A stretch of DNA of 64,000 nucleotides. Source: Armatimonadota bacterium. Lineage in GTDB: Bacteria; Armatimonadota; Fimbriimonadia; Fimbriimonadales; Fimbriimonadaceae. The stretch covers positions 1 to 64,000 of the forward strand of contig JAEURN010000011.1 of the NCBI GenBank assembly GCA_016789105.1, read 5' to 3'. The position numbers and the translations under genes are program-made. The notes under the pieces were generated by a model that had not been told where the DNA came from, searched no databases, and saw only the letters and a list, made by a program, of their open reading frames with translations. Shown piece after piece: positions 18,839 through 37,594 of this stretch; within the stretch, counting starts at the first letter, position 1; each line of letters begins with the position of its first letter.

Positions 18839-18915
18839 GGAATGAGTTTGGCAGATTAGTCAAGCGCATATTCAGACCACATTGCCGAAATTGAGCTCAT
18901 ATCTTGTCTCTCCAA

Positions 18916-18980
18916 GGTCTCTCCAACGCGGTGGAAAACTGTGGACGCTCAGGTTCAAACGCGGACATCGACTTAGGTTC
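18916..18980. repeat. Right-flank repeat block of the nitrate island
   Basis: GGTCTCTCC at 18916-18924 and ACTTAGGTTC at 18971-18980 repeat the two words at 778-786 and 835-844 in the same orientation, separated by 46 bases here and 48 there. A second partial GTCTCTCC lies at 18906. The sequence between the words is not alike. It may be the scar of cassette insertion. No gene is visible between 18839 and 19095. Confidence 0.4.
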
Positions 18981-19017
18981 ATTGAACCTGAAAAATGTCA
19001 GTCCTAAGGAGGGCGTC

Positions 19018-19045
19018 GGGGGTTCGATTCCCTCCGGGGCCGCCA
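19018..19045 (+). other. 3' end of a tRNA gene (T-arm, acceptor strand, CCA) without its 5' half; candidate attachment site
   Basis: 19018-19034 reads as a T-arm (GGGGG, loop TTCGATT, CCCTC). It is followed by acceptor strand CGGGGCC, discriminator G and an encoded CCA. A matching 5' acceptor (GGCCCCG) is not found upstream, so only the last 28 bases of a tRNA are present. Such 3' fragments are typical of attachment sites left by islands that integrate into tRNA genes. The acceptor and G discriminator would suit tRNA-Glu or a similar species. Confidence 0.6.
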
Positions 19046-21901: not shown

Positions 21902-22345
21902 CTACAAAAACCTAACTGTGGCGGAATACCCTTCCGGTTCCTCACAAGTGGTGAGCTCCCATCCGTTTGCCCGGGCCACTTCTCGGCAGATCCGCAGGCC
22001 AAGGCCGTTGCCAGCCGGCCCGTCCCCTTGATGGATGGCGTTCTGGATGACCAGCTCCGGGCCAGCCCCCGAGTGGCTGACGGAGACAGAGACGTTGGTT
22101 CCTTCGGGGCAATGCCGAAAGGCGTTTTCAAGCAGGTTCCGCACCAGTAGGACAAGGTGCTCTCGGTTGGCGAGGATTACAATTCCTGGGACGGAATCGA
22201 GTTGGAGCCGGATCGACTTCAACTCCGTCAGCGGTTGCAGCCCAACCAGCGTGTCATCGAATACTGACCGGAGATCGGCCTGCCCGCGGGGTGCCCGGGG
22301 CAAATACCGCAAAGGCCCTCGGCGGCAAACCGTTCAAGTTCTAAA
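21902..22345 (-). pseudogene. Remnant of a sensor histidine kinase (HATPase domain only, frameshifted)
   Basis: The intact frame (21902-22312, TTG start) encodes 136 residues. It has the N box NLLENAFRHCPEG and the G2-like box GNGLGLRICREVARANG of a histidine-kinase ATPase domain. The G1 region is weak and the membrane sensor and phospho-acceptor His domain are missing. Just upstream, the sequence that would continue the coiled coil (ELERFAAEGL) is in another frame, so a frameshift near 22312 is likely. It is a truncated relic at the junction between the tRNA-remnant zone and the protease locus. Confidence 0.65.
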
Positions 22346-22560: not shown

Positions 22561-23676
22561 ATGTGGTTTTCACTGGATCAGGTCGATGGACGGTACGCCC
22601 CGCCGTTGCGGATCCGGGCCGGCATGTTCGGAGACCTTGACCGGCGCTATTTGCGCCGATCCGAAGAATTGGGCGACATTTTCTACCGGCTCCACTTTGC
22701 GTTGATCGAGAAGCTGAGTCAGAGCGGGTTCAACAATAGCGAAAAAGGTGAGTTCGCTATGAAGGAAGCAACCTATAGCTGTTGGGTGCCGGTTCACCGG
22801 ATGCGGTTTTGGGATGAGAAGGATGCGCCTGACCCCAAGCCAAAGCCGATTTCAAACATGGATGCCTTCATCCGGACACGGTGCGCCTATGCCCGCATCA
22901 AGGCTTACCGGAAATTCTCCCCGAACTATTCGTCGGTGGATAAAAAGCTCCGGGAAATCGTGGCCGCCAGCCCTCGGATCGAATCCACGCCACCGGAAGG
23001 CAAATCGCCTGGCTTGGTTTTTGCTTCCCAAAGTTTCCCCTCCGGATTGCCGAAGCCGGGGCGGTTCAGTCCCGTCTTGGCCGGTTGGATCGGCAAACCA
23101 GAAACTCTTGCCAGCGCCTTCCCGGGCGACCCCGTCCCCAGCGAAAACCTGGTTTGTTCTGTGCTGGCCGAGGCCGGCGGGTGCATGGCCATCCCCACGC
23201 TTGTCGGGTTGCTTGCGGCCGCCTTTCCTGGCATCGAACTGCCGAAGACGGTTTCTGCGGACGCCGAGTCGCCCGGCCAGGAAGGGATCCAAGGCGGGCT
23301 CTCTGCCGATGCACTCGCGATCTTGAGGGCCGAATACGAGATGGTGAAACGCGGGTTCGGACGTCTGAACATTGACGAACTCCGTGTTTTGTATCTCAGC
23401 GTGCCCGAAGGGCAGTCCGGCTGCCCCGCCGAATTCGCCATCGCCTCCGATCAGGAATCAATTGGCAGCCTGGCGGAACTGTTGGATGTTACGGAAGATC
23501 AGGTCCGAGCCTGGTTGGATCAGATCCTGCTCGTCCGCCAAGGACCCGGGGTGACAGGCATGAATGCGGCTTTTGTCGGGAATTTGCTGGGCATCTCCCC
23601 TGGCCTGGTGACTTCGAGGCTCAAAGAGGCCCGGAACAAGCTACGGAGGATTGAAAACCTCGGGGCGAGACCTTAA
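22561..23676 (+). CDS. Sigma-70 region-4-like DNA-binding protein (candidate sigma factor)
   Basis: 371 residues. The last 40 residues (AAFVGNLLGISPGLVTSRLKEARNKLRRIE) match the second half of sigma-70 region 4. An earlier SIGSLAELLDVTEDQVRAWLDQIL is a second, similar helix-turn-helix. The N-terminal 200 residues do not show a convincing region 2, so this may be a divergent sigma factor or only a sigma-like regulator. It is followed after 5 bases by a membrane anti-sigma-like gene, the classical arrangement of an ECF pair. ATG 22561 is the first start; ATG 22759 would give a shorter form. Upstream TATGAT (22529-22534) could be a -10. Confidence 0.55.
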   Translation: MWFSLDQVDGRYAPPLRIRAGMFGDLDRRYLRRSEELGDIFYRLHFALIEKLSQSGFNNSEKGEFAMKEATYSCWVPVHRMRFWDEKDAPDPKPKPISNMDAFIRTRCAYARIKAYRKFSPNYSSVDKKLREIVAASPRIESTPPEGKSPGLVFASQSFPSGLPKPGRFSPVLAGWIGKPETLASAFPGDPVPSENLVCSVLAEAGGCMAIPTLVGLLAAAFPGIELPKTVSADAESPGQEGIQGGLSADALAILRAEYEMVKRGFGRLNIDELRVLYLSVPEGQSGCPAEFAIASDQESIGSLAELLDVTEDQVRAWLDQILLVRQGPGVTGMNAAFVGNLLGISPGLVTSRLKEARNKLRRIENLGARP

Positions 23677-23681
23677 CTTGT

Positions 23682-24614
23682 ATGGATACACCTAAAAAAC
23701 CCCTCGGCAAATCGGATGCGTTGGCCTTTCTCCGGGCCCTCGACCCCCCGGCAGGGGACATCCCGATGGAATTCACGGCCGAGCAATTGGAGGATTATGC
23801 CCATGGCCGGGCGGATCACGAAACGAACCAGCTGATCGAAGCCGCCCGCGCTTTGGATCCCCAAATAGACGAAGAGGTCCGGGTTTTGCAGGGCGAATTG
23901 CAGCTGATCCCGGAAGCCCAGGCGGCGGCCCCCATCGCCCGCAACCCTTGGAAGGCCGCCACGTTCGCGTTTGGGGCGGCGGCGTGTGCCTTGGCCGCAT
24001 TGGCGGCCGTCAACTTGGCATCCCGACCAAAAGAGGTGGCCCAGCTCGGCGGGTCTTCAATCATCGAAATGGGCGGCAAAACCTATGCAATGGCCGAACT
24101 GAGCCAGTCGGCCGTTGCGGCGCTGGCCAATGGGGCGATCACCGCTGGCGAGAACTGGGTCAAAGTCTCACCCCCCGGAATTGCCAGGGGTTCGGATGAA
24201 TTCGCCATCTCGACCCCGACGGACACGACATTGGAGGGATCCGTGTTTTCCCTAGAGTTCCAAGCCCCCGATGACGTCCATAAGGTTTCGGTATCGGTCC
24301 GCGGTCCACAGTCCATCGATGCCGCAGTTGACTCCGGGAAGTTCCAGGCCGGGCTTGCCCCCGGCCTCTATACGGTTCGGATCCAGGGCGAGGCCGACAA
24401 CGGGCAGATCGTAAGCAGCGAGTTTAGAATCCGGATCATGGACGACGCCGAGCGAACCGAATATGAACGCGAGCTCGCCGGCGCGTCAAACCCCATCGAC
24501 CGGCTCATCGTTTACGCCAATCACGGAGTCCGCCACGAGTTTGACCGCACGCGGGCCGCCTTGGGCAAATCGGCACCCGATATCACGTTCTCCCCGACGG
24601 GCGGATCCCGTTGA
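23682..24614 (+). CDS. Membrane protein with anti-sigma-like N-terminus
   Basis: 310 residues. Residues about 31-72 (FTAEQLEDYAHGRADHETNQL, then a helical stretch) have the shape of the cytoplasmic anti-sigma domain found in zinc-finger-like anti-sigma factors, without the Cys/His zinc ligands. A membrane helix spans about 92-113, and about 195 residues follow outside, including a beta-rich segment (VHKVSVSVRGPQSIDAAV) that looks like a sandwich fold. It follows the sigma-like gene by 5 bases. It probably sequesters that protein at the membrane until cleaved. The caspase-like gene starts 31 bases downstream. Confidence 0.55.
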   Translation: MDTPKKPLGKSDALAFLRALDPPAGDIPMEFTAEQLEDYAHGRADHETNQLIEAARALDPQIDEEVRVLQGELQLIPEAQAAAPIARNPWKAATFAFGAAACALAALAAVNLASRPKEVAQLGGSSIIEMGGKTYAMAELSQSAVAALANGAITAGENWVKVSPPGIARGSDEFAISTPTDTTLEGSVFSLEFQAPDDVHKVSVSVRGPQSIDAAVDSGKFQAGLAPGLYTVRIQGEADNGQIVSSEFRIRIMDDAERTEYERELAGASNPIDRLIVYANHGVRHEFDRTRAALGKSAPDITFSPTGGSR

Positions 24615-24645
24615 CCCTGACCAGACAATAGAAGCTAATTTCACC

Positions 24646-25626
24646 ATGACACTCACGACTCTCCTCTCGTTCGCAATCTTGTCGCGCAGTGCCGCAACTC
24701 CGGCAAAGGCGGTTCCCGCCCCAGCGGCCGCAAGCACAACCTATGCGCTGATCTATGGGGTCGGGAACTACCCGAACTTTGTGAATGCCGCCGGCGAAAC
24801 GGTGGTGAACGCCCTGCACGGCCCCCCAAACGACACCGACGACATGCGCAAACTCATCACCCGCGACTACGGGGTACCGGGCTCCAACACCCGGCTGAGA
24901 CTCAATTCCAATGCGACGGCCGACACGTTGATCGCCGATTTGAAGTGGGTCGTCTCCAAGGTCAAGCCAGGGGACACCTTCTTTTTCTACTTCTCGGGTC
25001 ACGGGATTCAGTTGAAGAACGCAGCGGAGCCCGATGGGCTTGATGAGGGGATCGTCCTTTCGGGAGGGCGGTTTGTCGTGGATGACGACATCCGCGGGTT
25101 ACGGGAGGCATTCAACAACGCCGGGGTGAACGTGGTGTTCATCTTCGATTCGTGTTTTTCGGGCGGGCTTTCCCGTGGGCCGTTTGAAGGGTTCTTCCGA
25201 GGGCAAGGAGTCCGGTTCTCCAACCGCTTGATGACCGAAAAGAACAGTGCTCGGCGCCCGACACGCAGAGCGATCGGGGGCGAATCGCACCCCAAGGCCC
25301 TGCCAAAGCAGCAATTGACGGCAAACGGCAAGGGCTACGGACTTATGCTCGAGGCATCTGGCGAAAACCAGAGTTCAGTGGAAGTCGAGGACGAAAACGG
25401 AAAACTCCCGGCCCGTGGGATTTTCACCTGGGTCTTTGCCGAAACTGTCCGACAGAACCCCTCGGCCAGTTTGGGTGCGGTCATGAAGGCGATCCTTAAA
25501 GAGTTTGACGAGGAGGGGATCTCCGATATGCAGCGACCTCAATACGAAACGTTCAACCGGGATGCCACAGGGAGTCCGCTTAGGACTTTGCTCAAACCGC
25601 AAACCACCGCAAACCGGCTCCAATAA
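24646..25626 (+). CDS. Caspase-like cysteine peptidase (family C14), exported
   Basis: 326 residues. An N-terminal hydrophobic stretch (1 to about 22) followed by an Ala/Pro-rich linker suggests a signal peptide or anchor. The caspase fold follows: YGVGNYPNF, the acidic GPPNDTDDMRKLI region, FFYFSGHG with catalytic His119 and FIFDSCFSGG with catalytic Cys170. Metacaspase-type enzymes of this group usually cut after basic residues. ATG 24646 is chosen because the open frame upstream overlaps the anti-sigma gene. It is the third gene of the run with the sigma/anti-sigma-like pair, so cleavage of the anti-sigma protein is an attractive but unproven role. Confidence 0.85.
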   Translation: MTLTTLLSFAILSRSAATPAKAVPAPAAASTTYALIYGVGNYPNFVNAAGETVVNALHGPPNDTDDMRKLITRDYGVPGSNTRLRLNSNATADTLIADLKWVVSKVKPGDTFFFYFSGHGIQLKNAAEPDGLDEGIVLSGGRFVVDDDIRGLREAFNNAGVNVVFIFDSCFSGGLSRGPFEGFFRGQGVRFSNRLMTEKNSARRPTRRAIGGESHPKALPKQQLTANGKGYGLMLEASGENQSSVEVEDENGKLPARGIFTWVFAETVRQNPSASLGAVMKAILKEFDEEGISDMQRPQYETFNRDATGSPLRTLLKPQTTANRLQ

Positions 25627-25681
25627 TATTTTCCCCTGACCGGTTTTCCGGTCGGCTCTCCTAGTGCAAAGGGAAAAGAAC

Positions 25682-26320
25682 ATGGACCCACAGCACATCA
25701 GAGACGAACACGCGGCATACCGGCTGGCAATCCGCAGCCAGTCCTCTCCGGCAGACCTGGCAACCTGGCATTCGGTTGGAAACTGGCTGGTTCCCCAAGC
25801 CAAAGACTTGATCGACCCATCTGGCCAACCGCTCGACACAGGAGTCGAGTGGCGCGAGTACGGAAAGATCTTGGATCCCCTTGGTTATTGCGACGCGACC
25901 CTGCTCACGGCCGACATGGGGTTCAAGGCGGTTGCCTGCTTCAACCGAATGGGACGATTGAGTTCCGTCACTACATTCGACCATGGGTCGCGGACGGCGG
26001 TTGTCGTGGGCGGGGATGCCGAGGCCATCGCGTTGGCCTCGATAGACGACCGGCGAGCCAACGCCTCCTTTGTAGGCATGAAGGGAGGGCTGCTCGGCCA
26101 AGTCACCCAAGAGTTTGGCGATGGCCGGATGTCCGTCCGGAAAGTGCAGGGCCGGCAAGAAGATTTCTCGGCAATCCGGCGCGACCGCCATCTCATATTC
26201 TTTTCGGGCGGATTGCGGCTCGGATCGGTGGAGTTTGCGAATCGGGTCAGCCCGGCGGATTGCCTCCTGGCATCCAGGTTTGCGCTTTCGGTTGCGGCCG
26301 GGGATCCGAAGGTGGTTTGA
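25682..26320 (+). CDS. Unknown protein in the caspase operon
   Basis: 212 residues, no signal peptide and no family recognised. The sequence is mixed alpha/beta, with a strand-rich centre (GFKAVACFNRMGRLSSVTTF, AVVVGGDAEAIALASIDD). ATG 25682 follows a GGGAAAAGAA stretch. It lies 55 bases after the caspase gene in the same direction and may be its partner or substrate. A frameless homology search found nothing by eye. Confidence 0.55.
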   Translation: MDPQHIRDEHAAYRLAIRSQSSPADLATWHSVGNWLVPQAKDLIDPSGQPLDTGVEWREYGKILDPLGYCDATLLTADMGFKAVACFNRMGRLSSVTTFDHGSRTAVVVGGDAEAIALASIDDRRANASFVGMKGGLLGQVTQEFGDGRMSVRKVQGRQEDFSAIRRDRHLIFFSGGLRLGSVEFANRVSPADCLLASRFALSVAAGDPKVV

Positions 26321-26337
26321 AGGTGGCGACGGCAACC

Positions 26338-26574
26338 ATGGAACCGGTCGTGATCGAAATCGGTCGCCGGGAGCTGCTGGAGACGTTTGACCAGTTGATC
26401 CAATGCGGGCCAGAATGGGCATTCACCCGCGAGCACTCATTGGACTTCCTCGACGCCGTGCAGTCGGCCCTTTGCGGCTTGGATCCGTACCAGCCGGCCT
26501 CATGGCGAATCCGGGCGACCCCCGAATTCGCCATGCTTCTCAAAGGAATGGGGCTGGGCCGCCTAGCGGCTTAG
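26338..26574 (+). CDS. Small unknown protein, 78 residues
   Basis: Begins 17 bases after the previous stop with ATG 26338 (an in-frame GTG at 26323 is possible). Composition is helical and acidic (RRELLETFDQLIQ, REHSLDFLDAVQSAL), soluble, no cysteine motif. Its last 12 bases overlap the end of the convergent caspase-like gene. No function recognised. Codon use and operon position support it as real. Confidence 0.5.
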   Translation: MEPVVIEIGRRELLETFDQLIQCGPEWAFTREHSLDFLDAVQSALCGLDPYQPASWRIRATPEFAMLLKGMGLGRLAA

Positions 26575-28722
26575 AAGCCAATAGGTCGCGGTGGCCACAC
26601 CCCAATCTTGAAGGCGGTCTGCAGGCCCCCGGTCGGCGGTCGCTTCGCCGCCGTTCATGATCTGGTTGAGCAGATCCTCGGCGGCAGAGCCATCGGCCCC
26701 CCGGACACCGGCACTCACCAGGCGGGAAAAGTCGAAGTCCTTTTCATTGGCGATGACCTTGATGGATTCCGTCCCCCCTTTGCCGAAGGCCGGGCTTGGG
26801 TTGACCAATCGGAGTGCGGCCGGATCGGCAAGGGCCTGCTGCTCGGTTAGGAGCCTCCCCCGCAACCCCAGGTAGGTCCAGCCCGACCATTGATCCCGTT
26901 CGATCTGGATGGGGGTCGCCGCATACGACTCTCCGCTGCCATCTGTCGGCGCGCGGAATGGGAAGACCGCTTTGACGCTGTGGTCTTGGTCAACTGCAAG
27001 AGCTGAAATGTACACGCGGGAGTGCTTAGCAAAGAATTGGCCGGGGATGTGGTCGGTTTCAAGTTTTTCAGCTTCCGGATTCGCCCGCACGCGCACGGCA
27101 ATACAAAAAACGGAATCCGGGCCAATCCTTCCCTTGAGCGCCTCCCCGGCCAGCAAGCCTGTCGCCCTCATGGCGCTCCCTTGGAATTCGCCTTTATCCC
27201 TTTGACTCGGGGTGAAATTCGTGGTGACCGGCACCAACTTGATTTCGACGTTGAAGGATGGGATCCCCGCCATGTCGAGATTCCGGACAAGGTCGCCATG
27301 GGCGACGCACCGGATCAAGTCTGCCGTGGCCATCTGGACATCTTTGAGCGGTTTGAGCATGACCGTTGCCCCGTTTTTTGAAACGATCTCCAGGTAGCCG
27401 GAACTCGTGTCATAGCGGAATTGGTAGTCGGAGGGTTTGCCAGGGGGGATGATGGCGATCAAGGGATTTCCCACGAGCTTGGATTGGTTGTCCCAATCAA
27501 GTGCCTGGGCGGTGGCCAGGTCGGCGGGGCCGATTTTGACGACCCGGGCTCCGACGGAATCGACGACCCTGGCCGAAAGATCGTCATGGGTTGGGGGCGG
27601 GGCCTCACTACCCAACGGTTTGAGTTGGGTGAAGTCGGCAAAGCACAGCCCTGCCTCCAGCTCTTGTTTGTAACCTTTGCCGTCGGTGACCAAAAACCGC
27701 ATTCCGGGGCGGATCCCCTGCAATTGGCCGACAGGGATGAACGGCAAATCCGGGTTGTATTCGACATCAGCCGAAAAAGCCTTGAACCTTTTGCGGTAGG
27801 TGGAGAGTTTGCCTTGCCCCGCCCGGGCCGGATCCTGCTTGGGGAAGAAGACGGGAAAATTCCAACTCTGCGCGGCGATTTGCCCGCCAAAAAGGGGCCG
27901 GTCGACGGCACCCCGGACCTCCGGTTCGCGGGTGGACCGGGTTTGCATGGCGACGCCGTTCAGGAGGGTTTCGAAATCGCGGTAGGTGATTCCGGCGGAA
28001 ATGCGGGGGCCGAGTTTGAGTAGCGAATAGGCGAGCGGCCCCATGGATTGCCCATCTTCATCTTGGACTTCGGAAACTGGTTGGAATTGGTTACCTGCCG
28101 AGACGTAGACGAATTCCTTCGGGTCGCCCAAGGGTGGCAGAGCGAGGCGCTCGGGGTTTGGTTTGGTGACTTTGGCGACCAATTCGCGGGTCCGTCCGCC
28201 GGATCGGTCGGCCGCCCCGGAATAGCAGCAATCGAGGAAGATTGTGGCGTCGGTCACACCAGCTGGGAGCCGGCTGAATTCGACCCTCAACTCGCGGGTC
28301 AGGATGAGAGAATCGGAATCGATCTCGCCCGTGGCAAGCTTGCGGAGTTTGGGCGGAACGATGGCTCCGATGGTCTCCGGCCCGCTTCCGGTGGGGATCG
28401 CCAAGCCATGGCCACCCCACCACAGCACGACGACGTTACCGGGCTTGGCGCCAGCGACCAGCCAATTCCGGACTTCGCCCAATATTGAGTCCCGATCCAT
28501 CTTGGAACTGTCATTGACGACTTTGATCTCGTCTTCGGGGACTCCTAACCTCTCCCGGAAAAAGTCGTGCACCCTCTCCACGTCCTTTGCGGCGCTGAGA
28601 TCCTGGCCGGGAAACTGTGGGTACTTCCCCGCCCCGATCAAAAGGATTCTGTAGTGGTGGGGGGGGGCTTCTGGGCGAGGTGCCGCCAGCAAAACCGAAC
28701 TTAAAATTAGGGCGTTCAACAT
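26563..28722 (-). CDS. Large secreted caspase-like peptidase with C-terminal DUF4384-like region
   Basis: 719 residues from ATG 28722 (the open frame reaches 28821 but the signal peptide MLNALILSSVLLAAPRPEA starts here). The caspase fold spans about 24-260, with VVLWWGGHGLAI (His105) and IFLDCCYSGAA (Cys166 aligned to the catalytic Cys). Residues about 300-719 are a long beta-rich region. It resembles DUF4384-type domains that accompany bacterial caspases and is probably for binding or regulation. It is divergent from the ClpP-like gene and convergent with the small gene at 26338. The family call is strong; the substrate is unknown. Confidence 0.82.
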   Translation of the reverse strand: MLNALILSSVLLAAPRPEAPPHHYRILLIGAGKYPQFPGQDLSAAKDVERVHDFFRERLGVPEDEIKVVNDSSKMDRDSILGEVRNWLVAGAKPGNVVVLWWGGHGLAIPTGSGPETIGAIVPPKLRKLATGEIDSDSLILTRELRVEFSRLPAGVTDATIFLDCCYSGAADRSGGRTRELVAKVTKPNPERLALPPLGDPKEFVYVSAGNQFQPVSEVQDEDGQSMGPLAYSLLKLGPRISAGITYRDFETLLNGVAMQTRSTREPEVRGAVDRPLFGGQIAAQSWNFPVFFPKQDPARAGQGKLSTYRKRFKAFSADVEYNPDLPFIPVGQLQGIRPGMRFLVTDGKGYKQELEAGLCFADFTQLKPLGSEAPPPTHDDLSARVVDSVGARVVKIGPADLATAQALDWDNQSKLVGNPLIAIIPPGKPSDYQFRYDTSSGYLEIVSKNGATVMLKPLKDVQMATADLIRCVAHGDLVRNLDMAGIPSFNVEIKLVPVTTNFTPSQRDKGEFQGSAMRATGLLAGEALKGRIGPDSVFCIAVRVRANPEAEKLETDHIPGQFFAKHSRVYISALAVDQDHSVKAVFPFRAPTDGSGESYAATPIQIERDQWSGWTYLGLRGRLLTEQQALADPAALRLVNPSPAFGKGGTESIKVIANEKDFDFSRLVSAGVRGADGSAAEDLLNQIMNGGEATADRGPADRLQDWGVATATYWLLSR

Positions 28723-28813
28723 TTTTCTAAATCTTCCCCTGAGTGGTGGGGGCCTTGGTTCCATTGCTGTTGTCGGCCGCAAGAAAAGGGGCCACAAAGA
28801 GCAGGACAAGGAT

Positions 28814-29401
28814 ATGGACAACTTTACTCACAGCATTCGACGCTTCGCAACGCTCGCCGTTGCCGCATTGGCCGCCACCGCCGCCTTTGCCGGGACCTTT
28901 AAGGACATTTCCAATGAGGACACCCCGGATGGCGAACGCTGGATCCAATACACCGGCACTGTCGCCAACAGCGACCTGAAAACCTACGAGAAGCTCCTCC
29001 GTGGCGATGAAACCATCGTCTTGGTCATGAGCTCGGGGGGCGGGGATTTTTATGCCGGGATCGCTCTTGGCAAAATGACTCGCAAATATCGCGACATGGT
29101 GCAGATCTTGGTGGATAAGGCCTATTCCGCCGCGGCCCTGTGGACCCTGGGCGACGACGACTACGATTGGTTGGACGACGACGCCGAACTGGGCTTCCAC
29201 TTGCCCTACATCTATGCCCAGAACGCGACGGCTGGGACTGACCAAAAGATCGGATACGCGATGGGGCGGTATCTGGAAGATGTGATGGGCCGGGATGAAG
29301 CCGATACATTCATGGATGTCTTGGGCCAAATCCGGGACGAGCATGGCAAGTTCGCGATGCTTTGCTTTGCCCCGGACAAAGACCCGTACATCAAGGAATA
29401 G
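28814..29401 (+). CDS. Exported ClpP/crotonase-fold serine peptidase-like protein
   Basis: 195 residues with a signal peptide (about 1-26, ending AAFAG). The mature part follows the ClpP fold: VLVMSSGGGDFYAGIALGKM (oxyanion-hole loop) and VDKAYSAAALW with Ser105 at the nucleophile position. GFHLPY supplies His129, 24 residues later; in ClpP the Ser-His spacing is 25. No ATPase partner can act outside the cytoplasm, so it would work alone or as a membrane-side peptidase like SppA/NfeD-type proteins. An AAGGA precedes the ATG. A strong terminator follows. Confidence 0.7.
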   Translation: MDNFTHSIRRFATLAVAALAATAAFAGTFKDISNEDTPDGERWIQYTGTVANSDLKTYEKLLRGDETIVLVMSSGGGDFYAGIALGKMTRKYRDMVQILVDKAYSAAALWTLGDDDYDWLDDDAELGFHLPYIYAQNATAGTDQKIGYAMGRYLEDVMGRDEADTFMDVLGQIRDEHGKFAMLCFAPDKDPYIKE

Positions 29402-29426
29402 CCCCCCAATCGGACGCGCTCTCGCC

Positions 29427-29461
29427 AGGTGCCTTTGAGGAAACTCAAAGGCACCTTTTTT
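29427..29461 (+). terminator. Intrinsic terminator of the ClpP-like gene
   Basis: A perfect 13-bp stem (29427-29439 with 29444-29456) and GAAA loop, followed by five or more T. It starts 25 bases after the stop codon. Confidence 0.9.
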
Positions 29462-29883
29462 GCATTAGACTTCCAAGTTTTTTACCGACCTGGGATGACC
29501 GGACCGATCGAGTCGGATGGGCTGGCCCTGGATCGGCCTTTGGTTGCGGAACCCATTGCGTGGACAAGCTCAGGCGGCCTCCCGGGAAGGAAAACCTGAT
29601 GCAAGTTGCCGAGGAGGTGTCAAGAGCCTCCCTTGCGTCAAGCCCGAGCCCTGCCAGAGTGGAATAGCCGGTCTCACTCCCGATGAAGGCCAAGTACATC
29701 CAGGGCGCATTGAATTTCCTGAAATCTGGTGTCGCCGAGGCCGGCACACTCCCCTAGAAACCGAGGGTTCGAGCCTCTGGCCCCATTCGACCGAGAGCCT
29801 ATTGTGTGAGATCCGTCCGGGATCCCCAGCCCTAGTCGGCGGACATCCGAATGTCCGCCGGGAGATGGGGCTCCACCAACAGA
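29462..29883. other. Non-coding stretch of about 420 bases with hairpins and a T-arm-like motif
   Basis: No gene with recognisable protein features. The region holds a 10-bp perfect hairpin (CGGCGGACAT, loop CCGA, 29838-29861) and a T-arm-like GAGGGTTCGAGCCTC near 29762-29776 without a cloverleaf. It also has a 24-codon frame at 29683-29757 (MKAKYIQGALNF...). The 3' part ends in GGGGCTCCACCA but has no matching 5' acceptor. It may encode a structured RNA or be a tRNA-derived relic. I could not match it to tmRNA, RNase P or SRP RNA landmarks. Confidence 0.35.
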
Positions 29884-29913
29884 AAAGCCCCCGCCGGAGA
29901 TGGCGGGGGCTTT
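29884..29913 (-). terminator. Terminator of the 29927-30751 gene
   Basis: A hairpin with arms GCCCCCGCC/GGCGGGGGC flanked by AAA and TTT. On the minus strand it ends in TTTTCT, 14 bases after the stop codon. Confidence 0.85.
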
Positions 29914-29926
29914 GGGTGACCTTTGA

Positions 29927-30751
29927 TTAGAGCTTGGGCATTTTGAGGCCCGCGTAGGCATAGATGTCGGCCCTTTGGGCGTTACGGGCATCGCTCGCCA
30001 CAACGACCGGACGCACGACCGTGACAATGAAGTGCCCCTCCGAAGTCTTGTTGGAATGCACACCGCCGACCCCGGCGACCGTGACATCGAACCCGGATTG
30101 CGGGCGGTTGGCGGTGATTTCGACCCGGAGGCCGACCACAGAGACGGTTTTGGTCACCATCCAGCTCTCGTGCCTTCTGAGCCCGGCAAAGGGTAAGTAC
30201 GGATCGAGTTGGCTTTGTTGAAACGCCTGGGCGAGATACCTCATCCCGGCAGGTTGGAATTCTTGGACGGAAACGTCGTCCCAGCTGAGTTTGACGGTCA
30301 GGTTGTTGGCATCCCCGGCGCTGACCCGGATCCCCAAGCTCGACGTGACCACTTTGAAGACCCCCTGGAACTCTCCTTGCGACATGTTGGCGCGGCTGAA
30401 TTCAACGCTCCCCGCACCAAACCGATAAGTGGAGACCAATTGCCGGGAAACCGCTTCCCGGACCGGGAGGGACAGGGCGGCGAGGGAGCTGACCGTGTCG
30501 GCTTCGAGCTCGTCGGTGCGGTAGTCGCTCTCGTGCCTGGGAAGCGGCCAATGCCCGAGCCGGCTATAGCGGCGGAATTGGCCGGGTTGGATGGTCGAGA
30601 GCAAGTCGTCAAGGGTGCGCATCCCGCGGATTTTCCCGTAGGGGTCTTGGATCCGGTCGATGACCACTTGGGCAAAGTTTGCCTGAGCCGAAGAGGCGGC
30701 CAAAACTGCCAAAACGGCGGCCGCTGCTTTTGTATGGATTAATGTTTTCAT
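29927..30751 (-). CDS. Secreted protein of unknown function
   Basis: 274 residues from ATG 30751, with a clear signal peptide ending AASSAQA. No domain recognised. The mature part has an N-terminal helical half and a strand-rich C-terminal half (SLGIRVSAGDANNLTVKLSW, SVVGLRVEITANRPQSGFDV). The organisation suggests a small beta-sandwich. No cysteines in the mature chain except none near the termini. It is flanked by the ClpP-like and TPR-CHAT genes, so it could be a substrate or partner, but nothing direct shows that. Confidence 0.65.
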   Translation of the reverse strand: MKTLIHTKAAAAVLAVLAASSAQANFAQVVIDRIQDPYGKIRGMRTLDDLLSTIQPGQFRRYSRLGHWPLPRHESDYRTDELEADTVSSLAALSLPVREAVSRQLVSTYRFGAGSVEFSRANMSQGEFQGVFKVVTSSLGIRVSAGDANNLTVKLSWDDVSVQEFQPAGMRYLAQAFQQSQLDPYLPFAGLRRHESWMVTKTVSVVGLRVEITANRPQSGFDVTVAGVGGVHSNKTSEGHFIVTVVRPVVVASDARNAQRADIYAYAGLKMPKL

Positions 30752-30870
30752 GGGTGTCCCTGTGCCGCAGAAATCGTGTGCGGCCAAGAAGTCATGAACC
30801 GCGATCTTGCTGGCTCAGGGGGTGGATTGCGGATTTGGAACTTCAACCGCCCTGTTCAAACAGCGGAAAG

Positions 30871-30896
30871 CCCCGGCCGGATGTTCCGGACCGGGG
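30871..30896 (-). terminator. Probable terminator of the Tyr/Gly-rich peptide gene
   Basis: CCCCGG/CCGGGG plus inner CCGG/CCGG pairing with loop AACAT on the minus strand, followed by CTTTCC. The T-run is short, so confidence is limited. The 30752-31085 stretch otherwise holds no gene I can support. Confidence 0.4.
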
Positions 30897-31085
30897 CGGG
30901 GCATGGGGGTAGAAGGCTCACCTGCCCGGCGTGGACAGGGGGATTTGGCCGTTGCGTCCCATGGCCGCTGGCAAATAGATCCGTGCGAGGTCGGGTTGTT
31001 CGTCGATTCGAAAGTTGTGCATAGCATTCTGTGGTGGTCGGTGGGGGGCTGGGTGGCTCCCAACCCCCCGATGGTGCCCATGTCG

Positions 31086-31217
31086 TTACCAGGGCTTGTA
31101 GTCTTCGCGGTATCCCCAAGTGGGATAGAGCTTGTTGTCGTAGCCGTAGCCGGTGTAACCGCCACGGTCGTTGACCCAGCCGAAGCCGCCGCCGCCATAA
31201 GGATTCTCTGTGTACAT
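31086..31217 (-). CDS. 43-residue Tyr/Gly/Trp-rich peptide
   Basis: Starts at ATG 31217 with an AAAGGAG ribosome site 12 bases upstream. Sequence begins MYTENPYGGGGFGWVND and continues with GYTGYGYD-type repeats, ending in REDYKPW. It has eight tyrosines and three tryptophans in 43 residues, no signal peptide and no cysteine. Such low-complexity aromatic peptides occur as structural or phase-separating proteins and as substrates of modifying enzymes, but none is adjacent. It is divergent from the TPR-CHAT gene, 176 bases apart. The start signal and codon composition support a real gene. Confidence 0.5.
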   Translation of the reverse strand: MYTENPYGGGGFGWVNDRGGYTGYGYDNKLYPTWGYREDYKPW

Positions 31218-31393
31218 GTTTCTGTGTTTCTCCTTTCCGGGTGACCCTCTCCCGTGCACCCGACACCACTCTGAGAACCGTTGGAAATTCTGCCCAGGGG
31301 GCTTTTTGAAAAAAAACTTTCGAGACGGCGGCTCGTCCAAACTGTGCCGGCCCACGACACCGGCATAATATCTTTGACTTGTGAAGGCTGCCG

Positions 31394-34300
31394 ATGGCAC
31401 TTTGTACCGCTACGTTATTGTTCGTTGTTTTGGCCTCTGCCCCCAACCAGGCGGAACCCATCGTTCTTGGTTTTGCCCGTGCGGGCAACCCCTTTGAGCG
31501 GAGGATCTCCGATGCGTTGAAGAACCCCCAGACGGCCCTGCGCGATTTAGACGCTGTCATCCGCGAGGCTTCCCGATCCGAGGACACCGAGGCGCAATCG
31601 GTTGCCTTCTTTTGGCGGGGCAGCCTTCTAGCGGAATCCGGCCAACTTGGCGACTCGGCCCTTGAGTTTGGAGAGGCCATCCGGCTGCTTGCAAACAGCA
31701 GCAACCCCAAACTGGCCGCCCGGTCCTATCTGGGCCGAGGGGTTGTTTGGCACCGGGCGGGGAAAGATCAGCCCGCCATCGCCGATCTCAGCGCGGCGGC
31801 CGGGCTCTGGGAAACATTGAAGGACAACCGATCGCTGGCTGAGTCCTTCCTTTGGCTGGCCGCGGCCGAGTCCAATTCTAGCAAGCCCGGTTGGCAGGCG
31901 ACTTTGGGTCGTTGCGAATTACTGGCGCAGTCGGTCAAAGACAACCGGATCCTTGTGGGGGCCAGCCGGGTGAAGGCAACGAACTCCCTGATGCGGCAAG
32001 ACTGGCCCAACTGCCGCCGGTTTGCCCGGCAAGGGCTTTCGCGCTCGGAATCAGGAGATTTCTGGAAGCAAGACCGGGCCGAGTGCAAACGCCTGTTGGC
32101 TTGGGGTGAGTTCCGCGAATCGCCTCCGGGACACGTTTTGGATTTGGCCCGGGACGCGCGCAAAGATTTCGAATTGGCCCAATCCGACCACCCGTTCCCC
32201 GAAGTCATTGAAAAGGGCAAAGGGGAATGCAGCTATTTGGCGGCGGCTGCCCTGGTCGATATGCGTATGTGGGATGCGGCCAAAGCAGAGCTTGCGAATT
32301 GGAAGCTGCCGGACTTCGGCCGCCGCCTGTTGGTCTATATCGCGGCCGGCACCGGCGACATCAAACTTGCCCTCGACTTGTTAAAGAGCGGGGAGATCCC
32401 CGGCGACCCTATCCCGGTCTATCTTGAGACCTGCAAAATCCTGTATGGCCAATCCGATTACCGCGGGCTGGATGCCGTGACTGCCTTTGGCCTTAGGGAG
32501 CTTGCCGGGAACGACTCGTTGGACGCCCGCCGGGGGCGCGGGATCCTTTTGGATTACTCCGGATTGGCCGGAGCCAGCGAGGGCGATTACACCCGGGCGG
32601 AAGCCTCGTTTTCGGCCTCCATCGCTTTGCTCATGCCGTCCGATCCCGGGGGCAACGGCGTCCAAATCCCCGTGGCCGGGCCGCGCTCCCTGGCCTTGAT
32701 GCATTTGGGCCAGATGTACGCCCTGATCGGACAAAAATCAAAGGCCCTGGCGCAGATTCCGCTTGGGCTGGCGGCAGCGGCTGAAGCCGAAGAAGATGCT
32801 GGCAAATCACCGGATTCCGTTGCTTTTCTCCCTGAGGCCCTTTTCAACCAGGGCTCGATCCTGTTGGATTGCGGACGGACGGAAGAAGCGCTCAAATCGC
32901 TGGACCGTGCAGCAACGCTTTTTCAGGGGCGGGATATGCGGCTGGAGATGCTCAAGTGCGAACACAGCCGTGGCAACGCCCTTCTCCGTCTCGGCCGAAC
33001 TAATGAGGCAATCAAGGCTTTGCGGAGTTCTTTGGGAAGGGACGACGACCCGGTCAGTGCCGAATCCCGGGCCGTGCGTCAGACCAACCTGGCCCAGGCT
33101 CTCATGGAATCTGGGCGAACCGAGGAAGCCCGCCGGCTTTTGTCCCAAGCCCTCCCCATCGTCGAAGGATCGGGCGATGTGGCGAACATCTCGCTGATCC
33201 GGCTCATGGTCGGCCGCAGTCTGTGGATGGGCGGCGAAAAGGCGGCGGCAATCCTTTTCGGCAAGGCCGCATTGGCTTCTTTGCAGCAGATGAAGGAAGG
33301 GACCAAAGGCATTGACCCCAAGGCCCAAACAGTTTTCATCGTCGAGATGTCGGAGCGGTTCCGCGAGGTTGCCCGATGGCTTTGTGACCAGAACCGGGTG
33401 CCAGAAGCGGAAGAAGTGCTCTACGCCCTCAAAGCGGAGCAATTCGGGAGCGCGGCGGGAGAACGCTCTTCCGCCTCCGAAAAGATCAGCCTGACCCCAA
33501 AGGAATCCGCTTGGATGAAGAAGTTCCAAGACCTGGGAACCCCGGTTCTGGCCATTGCCCGGGAGTATTCCGACCTGAGGGCCGTTGCCGAAAAGACCGA
33601 AGGCCAACGCAAACGGCTTGCCGAGTTGGAACAACTGCTCGACCAAGCCAGTTCGGCCTTCAATGAGTTCCAAAGAGGGGCGATGGCCGAGTTCGGAAAG
33701 TTGAAACTAGGCGAAGACCAAGCCTTGGCAGCCATTGAGCGCTCCAAGAAGCAGGCCCAGAAACTGGCCGGGTTACCTGGCCGCCCCGCCATCATCTACC
33801 CCTTCTTGACGGCAGACGGGGTCAGCTTGATCGTTGCCACGCCTTCCGGAAGTGTGGTGAAAAGGCCGGCCCAGCCGCTCACGGCCCAGGAGTTCAACTT
33901 GGCCGTACTCAACTTCCGTGTGTGCTTGCGGCTCCCCCAGGCGGATCCAACCCCCTATGCCAAGGTGCTCTACGATCAGCTTGTCGCCCCGATGGATGCC
34001 GAGTTGAAAGCCGGCGGGATCGACACTCTGATGTGGATGATGGAAGGCCAGATCCAGTTAGTCCCGGTCGCCGCGCTGGTCAACCCGACGACTGGCCGTT
34101 ACCTTGTCGAAGAGCATCCGCTTTCCCTGCTGTGCTACAAGGATGGCGACACGGGCCGTTTGTCGGAGCCCGGGAGCAAAACCTGGCGCGGGGCGTCGTT
34201 CGGGGTCTCGTTGGATTCCCGAGTTGGCGACGAGACGTTCTCTGCTTTGCCGGGGGTTCAGGGCGAGCTGGCGGGTTTCCACCAGTTGGTTCCGGGGGAT

Positions 34301-34921
34301 CCGCCAGTCGTGGATGCCCAGTTCGACGAAAGCTCATTGACGGGCTCGCTTGTGCCGGGCACGAATGTTTTACACATCGCCACCCATTTTCAGTTCAAGC
34401 GGGGGTCGATCAATGAATCGTTCCTGCTGCTGGGGCAATCCAAAACCCTGACGGTTTCGGCCCTGAAGGACAAGCGGGACGGCCTGTTTTCGACCATCGA
34501 CCTTTTGGTTTTGTCGGCGTGTCAGACGGCGGTTCCGGAGCGGGATCGGGCGGCGGATGCCGATGGCATCCCCTTCGACACGGTTGCTTCGGTTGCCGAA
34601 TCAAAAGGTGCCGCTTCTGTTTTGGCGACCTTGTGGAAGGTGTTTGACAAAAGCACGTCGGCCTTCATGCTCAGCTTTTACCGCTTGCGCAACGAGCACC
34701 CAGAACTAACAAAGGCCCAACTGATCCGGCAATCGCAGATTGACATGATCGAAGGGCGGATCACGCCGGCCACCGGCGAGCGGGTTTCTGAAGGCGGCGG
34801 GCAGAGGAGCGAGGGCAATGAAGAGCCGATGCCGGAACTCCCAAAGTGGCCATCGGGGCGGCCCGCCTATTCGCACCCCTATTATTGGGCGCCGTTCGTG
34901 TTGTTTGGCAATTGGCGGTGA
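31394..34921 (+). CDS. TPR-CHAT protease-like protein (caspase fold), exported
   Basis: 1,175 residues. A possible signal peptide (1-22) is followed by TPR-like helical repeats from about 60 to 640, including EEALKSLDRAATLFQGRD and NEAIKALRSSLGRDD. A coiled-coil stretch lies near 720-800. The CHAT domain spans about 830-1175, with VLHIATH (His998) and LVLSACQTAV (Cys1043) as the His-Cys pair and the final YWAPFVLFGNW motif typical of CHAT. CHAT proteins are caspase relatives. TPR-CHAT enzymes act in type III-E CRISPR systems and in other signalling contexts. No CRISPR array or Cas gene is seen nearby. TAATAT at 31366-31371 is a likely -10. Confidence 0.85.
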   Translation: MALCTATLLFVVLASAPNQAEPIVLGFARAGNPFERRISDALKNPQTALRDLDAVIREASRSEDTEAQSVAFFWRGSLLAESGQLGDSALEFGEAIRLLANSSNPKLAARSYLGRGVVWHRAGKDQPAIADLSAAAGLWETLKDNRSLAESFLWLAAAESNSSKPGWQATLGRCELLAQSVKDNRILVGASRVKATNSLMRQDWPNCRRFARQGLSRSESGDFWKQDRAECKRLLAWGEFRESPPGHVLDLARDARKDFELAQSDHPFPEVIEKGKGECSYLAAAALVDMRMWDAAKAELANWKLPDFGRRLLVYIAAGTGDIKLALDLLKSGEIPGDPIPVYLETCKILYGQSDYRGLDAVTAFGLRELAGNDSLDARRGRGILLDYSGLAGASEGDYTRAEASFSASIALLMPSDPGGNGVQIPVAGPRSLALMHLGQMYALIGQKSKALAQIPLGLAAAAEAEEDAGKSPDSVAFLPEALFNQGSILLDCGRTEEALKSLDRAATLFQGRDMRLEMLKCEHSRGNALLRLGRTNEAIKALRSSLGRDDDPVSAESRAVRQTNLAQALMESGRTEEARRLLSQALPIVEGSGDVANISLIRLMVGRSLWMGGEKAAAILFGKAALASLQQMKEGTKGIDPKAQTVFIVEMSERFREVARWLCDQNRVPEAEEVLYALKAEQFGSAAGERSSASEKISLTPKESAWMKKFQDLGTPVLAIAREYSDLRAVAEKTEGQRKRLAELEQLLDQASSAFNEFQRGAMAEFGKLKLGEDQALAAIERSKKQAQKLAGLPGRPAIIYPFLTADGVSLIVATPSGSVVKRPAQPLTAQEFNLAVLNFRVCLRLPQADPTPYAKVLYDQLVAPMDAELKAGGIDTLMWMMEGQIQLVPVAALVNPTTGRYLVEEHPLSLLCYKDGDTGRLSEPGSKTWRGASFGVSLDSRVGDETFSALPGVQGELAGFHQLVPGDPPVVDAQFDESSLTGSLVPGTNVLHIATHFQFKRGSINESFLLLGQSKTLTVSALKDKRDGLFSTIDLLVLSACQTAVPERDRAADADGIPFDTVASVAESKGAASVLATLWKVFDKSTSAFMLSFYRLRNEHPELTKAQLIRQSQIDMIEGRITPATGERVSEGGGQRSEGNEEPMPELPKWPSGRPAYSHPYYWAPFVLFGNWR

Positions 34922-35026: not shown

Positions 35027-37594
35027 ATGGAACATCTGACCGGCGCGGATTGCAATGTCGCTGCGCGAATTTCCCGTCAGCGCGACATCCGGCCCCTGTT
35101 GAAGTCGGCCCTCGCCCTCCTCGTTGCCGGTTCGACGATGCCTTCTGCGGCGCTTTCGACAACGGGCTGGATGGGCGGGACGGCGCCGTATCTCCAGTTC
35201 CCGGCCAATTCGCATATGTGGGGGGCGCTGCCAACCCCGGTGGGCAGTTCCAATGGTTTTGTGGCTTTTCCGCCAGCGACCGCCCCGTTCAATGGAATCA
35301 GTTACAAGGTTGAGCCGATCGCGACCGAAGGGGGCCGCCCGAACGGGCCGACGGGGTTCACGACCTACCTCCTCGATTCGGGAGGCTACGTTTTTGGTTG
35401 CGGGATTGACGACGGGATGTTGGGCAACCAATATCCATCCGGGTTCGGGGGAACCGGCGGCACGCTGAAACCCGTGATGATGCCCAATGGCACGAGCCCG
35501 GTCAGCGACGTGATCGCCATTGCCTCGTCGGCCAAGAACACGACCACCAATTCGCTTTGCACGTTTTATATGCTGAAGGTTGACGGCACCGTTGCCCTTT
35601 GCGCCAACCAAACCGGCAATGCCGTGTTCAACGGGACACTGAGTGGCAAGTTCGGGGTGACGACATTGATGGCGAATCCGAGCGGGGCGCCGTTCCGGGA
35701 TGTCAAAGCCATCACCTCGACCGGCAGCACTCTCGTGATGCTCAAGACCGATGGGACGGTCTGGTTGGCGGGCAACACGACGGGATTCAATGTCTCCGGC
35801 CCGGCGGGATACCCGCAGCAATTGCGCCATACCAACAACGCCAACATCGTCAACATCAAGGGCATCGCCGCGGGATTCACCCACATCGTGCTCTTGGCGT
35901 CTTCTGGCAATGTCGCCTGCATCGGCCGCAATGACAACGGTGCCATTGGGGGCACGGCAAAAGTGGGGTGGGATGCCAACATCACGACCTCGGCTACCGG
36001 CACGCTGGCCAAGGTCAAAAAGGTGGAGGCCACCCAGTCCAATTGCTTTGCCTTGATGTCCGACGGGCAAGTGTTCGCCTGGGGATTGGATCACTACGGC
36101 ACCGGAGCATCCAACGGATTGCTCGGCACAAACGCGGTTCTTTCGACCGACCCCAACATCTCACCCAAGCCGTATTACCAATCCAAGGCCAAAGCCATTC
36201 CCGGCCTTTCCAACGTGGTGGATATTTGGTCTTCTGTCCACACAATGTATGCGATTTTGGCCGACGGCACCATCCGCGTTTGGGGGGACAAAATGTATCT
36301 TCCAGCTTCGACCGGGTCATCTGGTTTTTCGAGCCCCTGGCAGTTCACCTCCCATCCGACACGGACGAGCGGGGTTCTTTCCGGTTCTGGTGGCGGCGCC
36401 GGCCTGCTGATCCAGGGGACGGGCCGGCCGCAGGCCTGGGGCCGAAACAAAGAAGGGCAAGCGGGCACCGGCGGAACCATTCAGGCGTTGGCGACCCCAA
36501 CGGTCACGGCAACCCCGGTCAAATTGCAGACGCTACCGTTCCCGTTGCAATTGAAACACATTGCGGGCGGCCAATTCCACTCGGTTGGTATCGGCGCGAA
36601 CGGGATGCTGTTCACCGTTGGCGGCGAGAACGCCAACCAAGCCCTTGGCAACGGCCCCAATATTCAATCTTCCTCGACCTGGAACTACGCAACGGGCCAG
36701 ACAAGCCAAGGTGTGTGGATCGATGCTGACGTCGAAGGGGCTACGACCTATGCCCTGCGTTCAAACGGGAAGCTTTATGGATTTGGGCTCGACCCCTTGC
36801 GATCCAATCCGGCGAACCCTCCTGCAGTGCATAGCCTGACCCAGCTGACACTGCCCCCTGCCCTCAATTCGATGGGCGTGATCTCTGTGAAAGCCGGGGC
36901 CGAAGCCACTCTGGCGTTGTCATCCGACGGGACGGTTTGGGCCTTGGGTGGAGACACCCATGGTGAAAAGGGCGACGGCCCCGGCAACCCGACCGGTTCG
37001 GGTTGGTCCCAGGTAAAGCTGGCAAATGGCAACGTGATGAACATGGCCATTGCCATCGACATTGCTGGGCACACCGCCTATGCCTTGCTATCGAGCGGAC
37101 AGGTAATGGCCTGGGGGGCCAACCAAGAGGGCCAATGTGGCAACGGGGCCGCGGGCGCGGATCAGGACTATCCGGCGGCCAGCGGGGCAACGAGCGTGAA
37201 AATGATCTCGGCCGGGACAAGCCCCAACAACACTGCTGCTGGGCATTGCGTTTATTTGACTGGCAAAGGGAATGTGTTTATTTCGGGTTCGAATCTGCTT
37301 GGCCAGTTGGGCAACGGCACCGCTTCTGCAACGGGGAGCGCGGTTCCCCAGCAAGTCGTTCAAATTCCTTCCATCAAAGAGATTTCGGCCGGGTTGGGGT
37401 TCACAACCGCCCTCACGGCGGGCGGCATGGTCTATGCGTGGGGCAACAACAGCCAGCAAATGATCGGCTTCAACTCCACGGTGTCCGCCCAGCCGAGCCC
37501 GGTTCCGGTTTCTTCTGGGCTGGGGGTGCGGTATTACCGGCTCGGGATTGGGTCGGATCGCGCAACGGCGTTCGCGTTCACGTCCAGCAATTGA
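35027..37594 (+). CDS. RCC1-type beta-propeller repeat protein, secreted
   Basis: 855 residues from ATG 35027 (GTG 35006 would add seven). Residues up to about 43 look like a signal peptide (LLKSALALLVAGSTMPSAALS). The rest is repeats with the RCC1 pattern, a DG-x-V-x-A-W-G core: DGQVFAWGLDHYG, DGTIRVWGDK, GMVYAWGNNS and GQVMAWGANQEGQCGNG, with at least ten units. This should fold as one or two seven-bladed propellers. Bacterial members are usually cell-surface or extracellular binding proteins. It follows the TPR-CHAT gene in the same direction, about 105 bases on, so they may be cotranscribed. Confidence 0.8.
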   Translation: MEHLTGADCNVAARISRQRDIRPLLKSALALLVAGSTMPSAALSTTGWMGGTAPYLQFPANSHMWGALPTPVGSSNGFVAFPPATAPFNGISYKVEPIATEGGRPNGPTGFTTYLLDSGGYVFGCGIDDGMLGNQYPSGFGGTGGTLKPVMMPNGTSPVSDVIAIASSAKNTTTNSLCTFYMLKVDGTVALCANQTGNAVFNGTLSGKFGVTTLMANPSGAPFRDVKAITSTGSTLVMLKTDGTVWLAGNTTGFNVSGPAGYPQQLRHTNNANIVNIKGIAAGFTHIVLLASSGNVACIGRNDNGAIGGTAKVGWDANITTSATGTLAKVKKVEATQSNCFALMSDGQVFAWGLDHYGTGASNGLLGTNAVLSTDPNISPKPYYQSKAKAIPGLSNVVDIWSSVHTMYAILADGTIRVWGDKMYLPASTGSSGFSSPWQFTSHPTRTSGVLSGSGGGAGLLIQGTGRPQAWGRNKEGQAGTGGTIQALATPTVTATPVKLQTLPFPLQLKHIAGGQFHSVGIGANGMLFTVGGENANQALGNGPNIQSSSTWNYATGQTSQGVWIDADVEGATTYALRSNGKLYGFGLDPLRSNPANPPAVHSLTQLTLPPALNSMGVISVKAGAEATLALSSDGTVWALGGDTHGEKGDGPGNPTGSGWSQVKLANGNVMNMAIAIDIAGHTAYALLSSGQVMAWGANQEGQCGNGAAGADQDYPAASGATSVKMISAGTSPNNTAAGHCVYLTGKGNVFISGSNLLGQLGNGTASATGSAVPQQVVQIPSIKEISAGLGFTTALTAGGMVYAWGNNSQQMIGFNSTVSAQPSPVPVSSGLGVRYYRLGIGSDRATAFAFTSSN

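Follow-up and report, generated by a model that had tools for sequence, protein, structure and literature searches.

Why a candidate sigma factor and a membrane protein resembling a sigma factor inhibitor should be encoded together with several caspase-fold proteases is the question raised by this locus, which occupies positions 22561 to 34921 of the window (the whole 64,000-nucleotide stretch of DNA that was analysed) on contig C11 of a 2.75-Mb host genome. To our knowledge, most prokaryotic CHAT and caspase-like proteases are without a known substrate. A sequence-only reading had listed a sigma and anti-sigma-like pair, two caspases, an exported ClpP-like protein and a TPR-CHAT protease, and had suggested that one of the caspase-fold enzymes might cut the anti-sigma protein. 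In our analysis all of these features were present, as follows.

22561..23676, + strand: putative divergent sigma-70-family factor, 371 aa (fold search, family profile)
23682..24614, + strand: predicted single-pass anti-sigma-type membrane protein, 310 aa (held-out profile, hydropathy, model, zf-HC2 orthologues)
24646..25626, + strand: peptidase C14 caspase fold (caspase 1), 326 aa, His119/Cys170, hydrophobic leader (Pfam, aligned dyad)
25682..26320, + strand: 212-aa protein, no family match in Pfam and NCBIfam scans (gene model)
26563..28722, - strand: C14 caspase fold with a long C-terminal extension (caspase 2), 719 aa, His105/Cys166, hydrophobic leader (Pfam)
28814..29401, + strand: putative exported ClpP-like protein, 195 aa, Ser105/His129 (NCBIfam Clp_rel_HeadMat at 1.9e-4, below threshold)
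29927..30751, - strand: 274-aa protein, hydrophobic leader, no family match in Pfam and NCBIfam scans (gene model)
31394..34921, + strand: TPR-CHAT protease, 1175 aa, His998/Cys1043, hydrophobic leader (Pfam CHAT PF12770 at 4.2e-43, plus TPR)

The first two genes are separated by a gap of 5 bp, with both reading frames intact and adjacent, and the caspase 1 gene begins 31 bp past the anti-sigma gene on the same strand. The gene adjacent to the anti-sigma gene is thus a caspase instead of the CHAT protease, which lies ~7 kb away. The 25682 and 29927 proteins, which matched no family, are candidate members of the locus at most. Just upstream of the sigma gene there is a lone histidine-kinase ATPase fragment (21902-22312, - strand), perhaps left over from a two-component system, and the CHAT gene is followed by a gene for an 855-aa RCC1-repeat protein (35027-37594). 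The locus had been described as devoid of a CRISPR array and of Cas genes, and this held: a search at 18-40 kb revealed no tandem-repeat array, and no Cas match was obtained among the ten proteins scanned (22.5-37.6 kb).

The 22561 product taken singly gave marginal scores in Pfam (0.006) and NCBIfam (0.003), under the curated cut-offs, and a single-sequence search with it against 100 relatives retrieved only itself. Its family was entered through synteny instead. Searches with the CHAT and caspase proteins led to three relatives (G011, G070 and G068) in which a protein of similar size precedes an anti-sigma-like protein, and a four-member profile of these proteins and the window copy then retrieved the family throughout the phylum. 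A scan of the genome collection extended the family to Acidobacteriota and to one MAG labelled Acidimicrobiia. All 19 of the family members scanned matched the sigma70-ECF model TIGR02937 (best 2.2e-11), and 12 of the 19 matched Sigma70_r2. When the profile was built without the window sigma, it retrieved this protein at E 2e-8 (826 proteins), showing that its membership of the family is not circular. Since the single-protein scores were only marginal, the sigma assignment rests on the family, the held-out profile and the predicted fold. Members of this family (~350 aa, sigma2 and sigma4 being separated by a long insert) are weak against public models when scored singly and are thus easily overlooked in annotation.

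The structure model of the window sigma had a mean pLDDT of 75. A Foldseek search of the PDB with this model returned sigma factors in all of the best 48 rows, none of them reaching E 0.001, and the whole-chain rmsd was poor because sigma2 and sigma4 are set apart. Taken separately, modelled residues 34-151 superposed on SigW (5wur) with 2.3 Å over 78 residues, and residues 257-367 on the sigma4 region of SigD (3vfz) with 1.7 Å over 62 residues. The layout given by the model is a sigma2 region (~34-120), an insert of ~130 residues and a sigma4 region (~250-367); part of the insert (residues ~179-222) showed a weak likeness to the N-terminal domain of RNA polymerase delta (E 0.026). ECF (group IV) factors are recognized by a compact sigma2-sigma4 arrangement with a short linker, which the window protein does not have. 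As its insert is longer than in ECF factors, we did not file it as a standard ECF factor, notwithstanding a putative ECF-like way of working. The protein is also extremely divergent, with a best identity of 18% and a branch length of 5.3, and its activity could have been lost through divergence. In a maximum-likelihood tree it fell on a very long branch where it is not placeable, and gains of the caspases are not countable from that tree. Taken together, the modelled fold, the family-wide matches and the held-out profile bear out the candidate sigma factor, and indicate that the 22561 product is probably a sigma-70-type factor with sigma2 and sigma4 regions.

Hydropathy analysis of the 23682 product revealed one hydrophobic segment only, at residues 92-110. 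This predicted transmembrane segment is preceded by a cytoplasmic head (~30-80) and followed by an outer FnIII/Ig-like domain (170-256), detected by structure modelling and fold search, and a short helical tail. The orthologues are built in a similar way, a zf-HC2 finger and one transmembrane segment being followed by an FnIII/Ig-like domain with a short TPR-like tail behind it; zf-HC2 exceeded the curated cut-off in four Armatimonadota orthologues, and 11 of the 13 aligned members have it. Among the closely packed acidobacterial trios, L143 and L145 are examples in which the zinc finger is retained. The window copy is without the His, Cys and Cys ligands of the HxxxCxxC zinc motif, and these ligands were also lost in the G068 and G070 copies. 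When the window copy and its three nearest relatives were left out of the profile, it still detected the window head at E 1.3e-7, and the gene order and topology are those of the zf-HC2 class, that is, a gene beside sigma, a single transmembrane segment and an N-terminal head. The anti-sigma-like head first noticed in the letters of the window was borne out, and the protein appears to be kin of the zf-HC2 membrane anti-sigma class, minus the class motif.

The three proteases with caspase folds were clear by comparison with public models. Pfam C14 (PF00656) matched caspase 1 at 8.5e-17 and caspase 2 at 2.6e-6, both above the cut-off, and the three His-Cys dyads of the caspases and the CHAT protein, unchanged on recomputation, aligned with those of homologues and were intact in the aligned members. 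Most of the CHAT and C14 products, in the window as well as in relatives, start with hydrophobic leaders as judged by hydropathy only, some of them without a positively charged start. Given such leaders, the CHAT protein and the caspases would share a side of the membrane with the outer domain of the anti-sigma protein. For the ClpP-like protein, Ser105 and His129 were found where they had been placed, and both residues are conserved in four homologues together with a glycine-rich loop, but its inclusion in the set did not extend to relatives. Its match to Clp_rel_HeadMat was 21 bits against a cut-off of 120, and no match for it was obtained in the PDB. Homologues from four other genera (L159-L162) are encoded on contigs separate from the sigma/CHAT loci, and we therefore rejected this gene as a conserved member of the module.

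Co-occurrence of sigma, anti-sigma and caspase genes in relatives had been named as the check on the whole proposal. In Armatimonadota, an anti-sigma gene follows the sigma gene in 27 of the 32 loci with a visible next gene, and outside this phylum it does so in every assessable locus. Of 33 Armatimonadota genomes, 14 have a CHAT gene no more than 5 kb from sigma, against 0.16 expected (nominal P 9e-25, related genomes not being independent), and in 11 of those 14 genomes the sigma-adjacent CHAT gene is the genome's sole one. On contigs from other phyla, mostly Acidobacteriota, CHAT was found beside the sigma/anti-sigma pair in 10 cases out of 17, and several of the remaining seven contigs stop at a contig edge. 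A C14 caspase is within 5 kb of sigma in only five of the 33 genomes (0.09 expected), namely the window's own genome (G000), G011, G068, G070 and G154; in the last four the pair is accompanied by caspases and in most of them also by CHAT. These frequencies suggest that the core consists of sigma, anti-sigma and CHAT, with caspases added in a subset, so that the expected co-occurrence was obtained for the pair with CHAT but to a much smaller extent for the pair with C14. The order CHAT-sigma-anti-sigma is seen in many Armatimonadota, with reading frames that touch or overlap in L114 and L117, while the order in Acidobacteriota is sigma-anti-sigma with a convergent CHAT gene. Sigma-linked homologues of the window CHAT protein itself were found in G070 and others, and no Cas gene was recognized beside the trio in the relatives. 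Because gene order is kept across phyla, the association is more than chance. Thus there is strong comparative support for co-conservation of the putative sigma/anti-sigma pair with TPR-CHAT in Armatimonadota, Acidobacteriota and one actinobacterial MAG.

Individual loci showed further arrangements. In L114 (8747-9253) and L117 (a 177-aa gene), a canonical ECF sigma is encoded between the large sigma and the zinc-finger anti-sigma protein, which makes the sigma/anti-sigma pairing at these two loci uncertain. Another family of the phylum has a further protease-rich sigma locus, L111 (G154:C182), in which a subtilase-like protein and a C14 caspase are encoded alongside CHAT, sigma and anti-sigma. 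In L067 (15170-17104, G011) the gene immediately after anti-sigma encodes a TPR-containing M48 metallopeptidase. In L066 (8900-13716, G019) the top homologue of the window's CHAT protein is encoded tail to tail with a caspase-2 homologue, and sigma and anti-sigma genes are missing there. On another contig of the window's own genome (L074, G000:C3 ~115.5-120.5 kb), the gene for a small exported C14 caspase precedes that for a ~1300-aa protein with a C-terminal C14 domain; a C14 pair of this type, seen also in L072, recurs in at least two genomes.

The genomic setting of the window locus is itself variable. No DNA match to the interval from 19046 to ~37728, which contains the whole cluster and the RCC1-repeat gene, was found in the seven congeners searched, showing that the cluster is strain-variable. 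On the right the interval is bounded by a tRNA-Lys gene, and on the left by a copied 3' half of tRNA-Arg(CCT), with which a ~140-bp element (18906-19045) ends. The tRNA-Asn called by ARAGORN at 18946-19045 was rejected, as its 3' end is this tRNA-Arg(CCT) copy. In congeners each genome has several copies of the ~140-bp element after the intact tRNA-Arg, on its downstream side (G006:C1, L163-L165; G003, L167; and G002:C19, L168 and L169), an arrangement reminiscent of tRNA-targeted islands arrayed in tandem. No integrase was recognized.

How the conserved parts could work together is suggested by their predicted topology. The cytoplasmic head of the single-pass anti-sigma protein would hold the divergent sigma-70 factor, with the FnIII-like part outside the inner membrane. 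The exported caspase-fold proteases would be activated by a signal, for which the TPR repeats or the anti-sigma tail might be the binding site, and TPR-CHAT, in this lineage also the C14 caspases, would cut the outer part of the anti-sigma protein; the clipped protein would then be degraded, the sigma freed and its target genes turned on. The anti-sigma protein as substrate, its release of sigma on cleavage, the signal and the regulon are what we infer from this arrangement. A cut on the outer side is favoured since the sigma-linked exported CHAT would be on the FnIII side. Two features of the window count against the scheme at this particular locus, namely the distance of the CHAT gene, with a caspase adjacent instead, and the extreme divergence of the window sigma. 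The failure to find a promoter motif common to sigma and CHAT genes, the leaders that begin without a positive charge and the uncertain pairing in L114 and L117 also weigh against it. On balance, we consider a membrane-crossing switch, in which an exported CHAT or caspase cleaves the anti-sigma protein and releases sigma, to be a serious possibility that stops just short of being probable.

The same neighbourhoods could also arise if the proteases were outputs of the sigma factor. The anti-sigma protein would sense envelope stress itself or via general proteases, and the freed sigma would induce the CHAT, caspase and ClpP-like genes, whose products would break down damaged or foreign protein or contribute to killing of the cell. 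Co-expression is indeed suggested by the several families in which CHAT and sigma seem to form an operon, and the change of protease type from locus to locus (C14; subtilase-like in L111; M48 in L067) fits exchangeable effectors. However, CHAT is the one protease type retained from phylum to phylum as the others vary, a pattern more in keeping with a fixed partner, and no shared promoter motif scoring above shuffled sequences emerged upstream of the sigma and CHAT genes, a result that speaks neither for nor against autoregulation. We therefore hold this explanation to be possible but somewhat doubtful. It is unlikely, on the other hand, that the window genes are mere neighbours in a strain-variable island, with a divergent sigma that may be decaying and caspases engaged in an unrelated secreted function, while the ancestral trio holds elsewhere. 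The lack of a DNA match in the congeners, the very long branch of the window sigma and the joint occurrence of CHAT and caspase-2 homologues without sigma in G019 would all agree with such an accident, but the intact frames 5 bp apart, the caspase gene following closely on the same strand and the pairs accompanied by caspases in four other genomes are against it.

A further explanation comes from type III-E CRISPR systems, in which Csx29 cleaves Csx30, the inhibitor of CASP-sigma (PMC10028731). The locus could be a guided system of this kind that has lost its array and keeps its Cas components elsewhere in the genome, as TPR-CHAT, a sigma inhibitor and a sigma factor occur in one locus just as in the Csx29 circuit. 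Type III-E is defined by a Cas7-11 effector and an array together with TPR-CHAT, of which the effector was missing among the ten proteins and the array at 18-40 kb, and we rejected the assignment on these grounds. The export leader of the CHAT protein, the membrane zf-HC2-type nature of the inhibitor and the relatives, in which no Cas gene was recognized alongside the trios, point the same way and make such an origin highly improbable. The comparison with type III-E drawn in the sequence-only reading, given no Cas gene among the ten proteins scanned and a CHAT protein that appears exported, holds as an analogy only.

The preferred explanation, a cut on the outer side of the anti-sigma protein by an exported caspase-fold protease, has a precedent in regulated proteolysis, where DegS cuts RseA. 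In common with the DegS/RseA/sigmaE pathway are a membrane anti-sigma protein with a cytoplasmic head and an outer domain, and an outer protease as the proposed trigger; in the present system caspase-fold proteases rather than a PDZ serine protease lie beside the sigma gene, the sigma factor is larger and the cut is only proposed. A sigma factor with nearby CHAT and subtilase genes and proposed proteolytic control has been described for ECF54 (PMC8999054, section 3.3). By that description the two are set apart, ECF54 being controlled without an anti-sigma factor, whereas one is nearly always present here. EACC2-caspase neighbourhoods hold ECF sigma genes and TPR proteins (PMC8195603) and thus likewise combine caspase domains with a sigma factor, but the loci described here have a membrane anti-sigma protein and CHAT instead, and no EACC module was above the cut-off at the window locus (NF047832, ~33 bits against 140). 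In the open-access literature we found no paper on a trio of sigma, zf-HC2 anti-sigma and exported CHAT. Among the nearest known systems is also that of Csx29, Csx30 and CASP-sigma, with which the locus shares a TPR-CHAT protease encoded alongside a sigma factor and an inhibitor of it; the locus differs in having no Cas7-11 or guide (ten proteins scanned), in a CHAT protein with a leader rather than a cytoplasmic one, and in an inhibitor that is single-pass membrane zf-HC2 kin and not Csx30. We suggest tentatively, as an idea that may well prove wrong, that these loci are a counterpart of the Csx29-Csx30-sigma circuit that works in the envelope without CRISPR and is widespread in Acidobacteriota and Armatimonadota, with exported caspase-fold proteases (CHAT, in some lineages joined by C14 caspases) cutting a membrane anti-sigma protein and so releasing a distinct, large sigma-70 class. 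If so, the CRISPR circuit would be one case of a general theme of caspase-controlled sigma factors, and the conserved membrane sigma inhibitor next door would provide a concrete candidate substrate for a large group of exported proteases.
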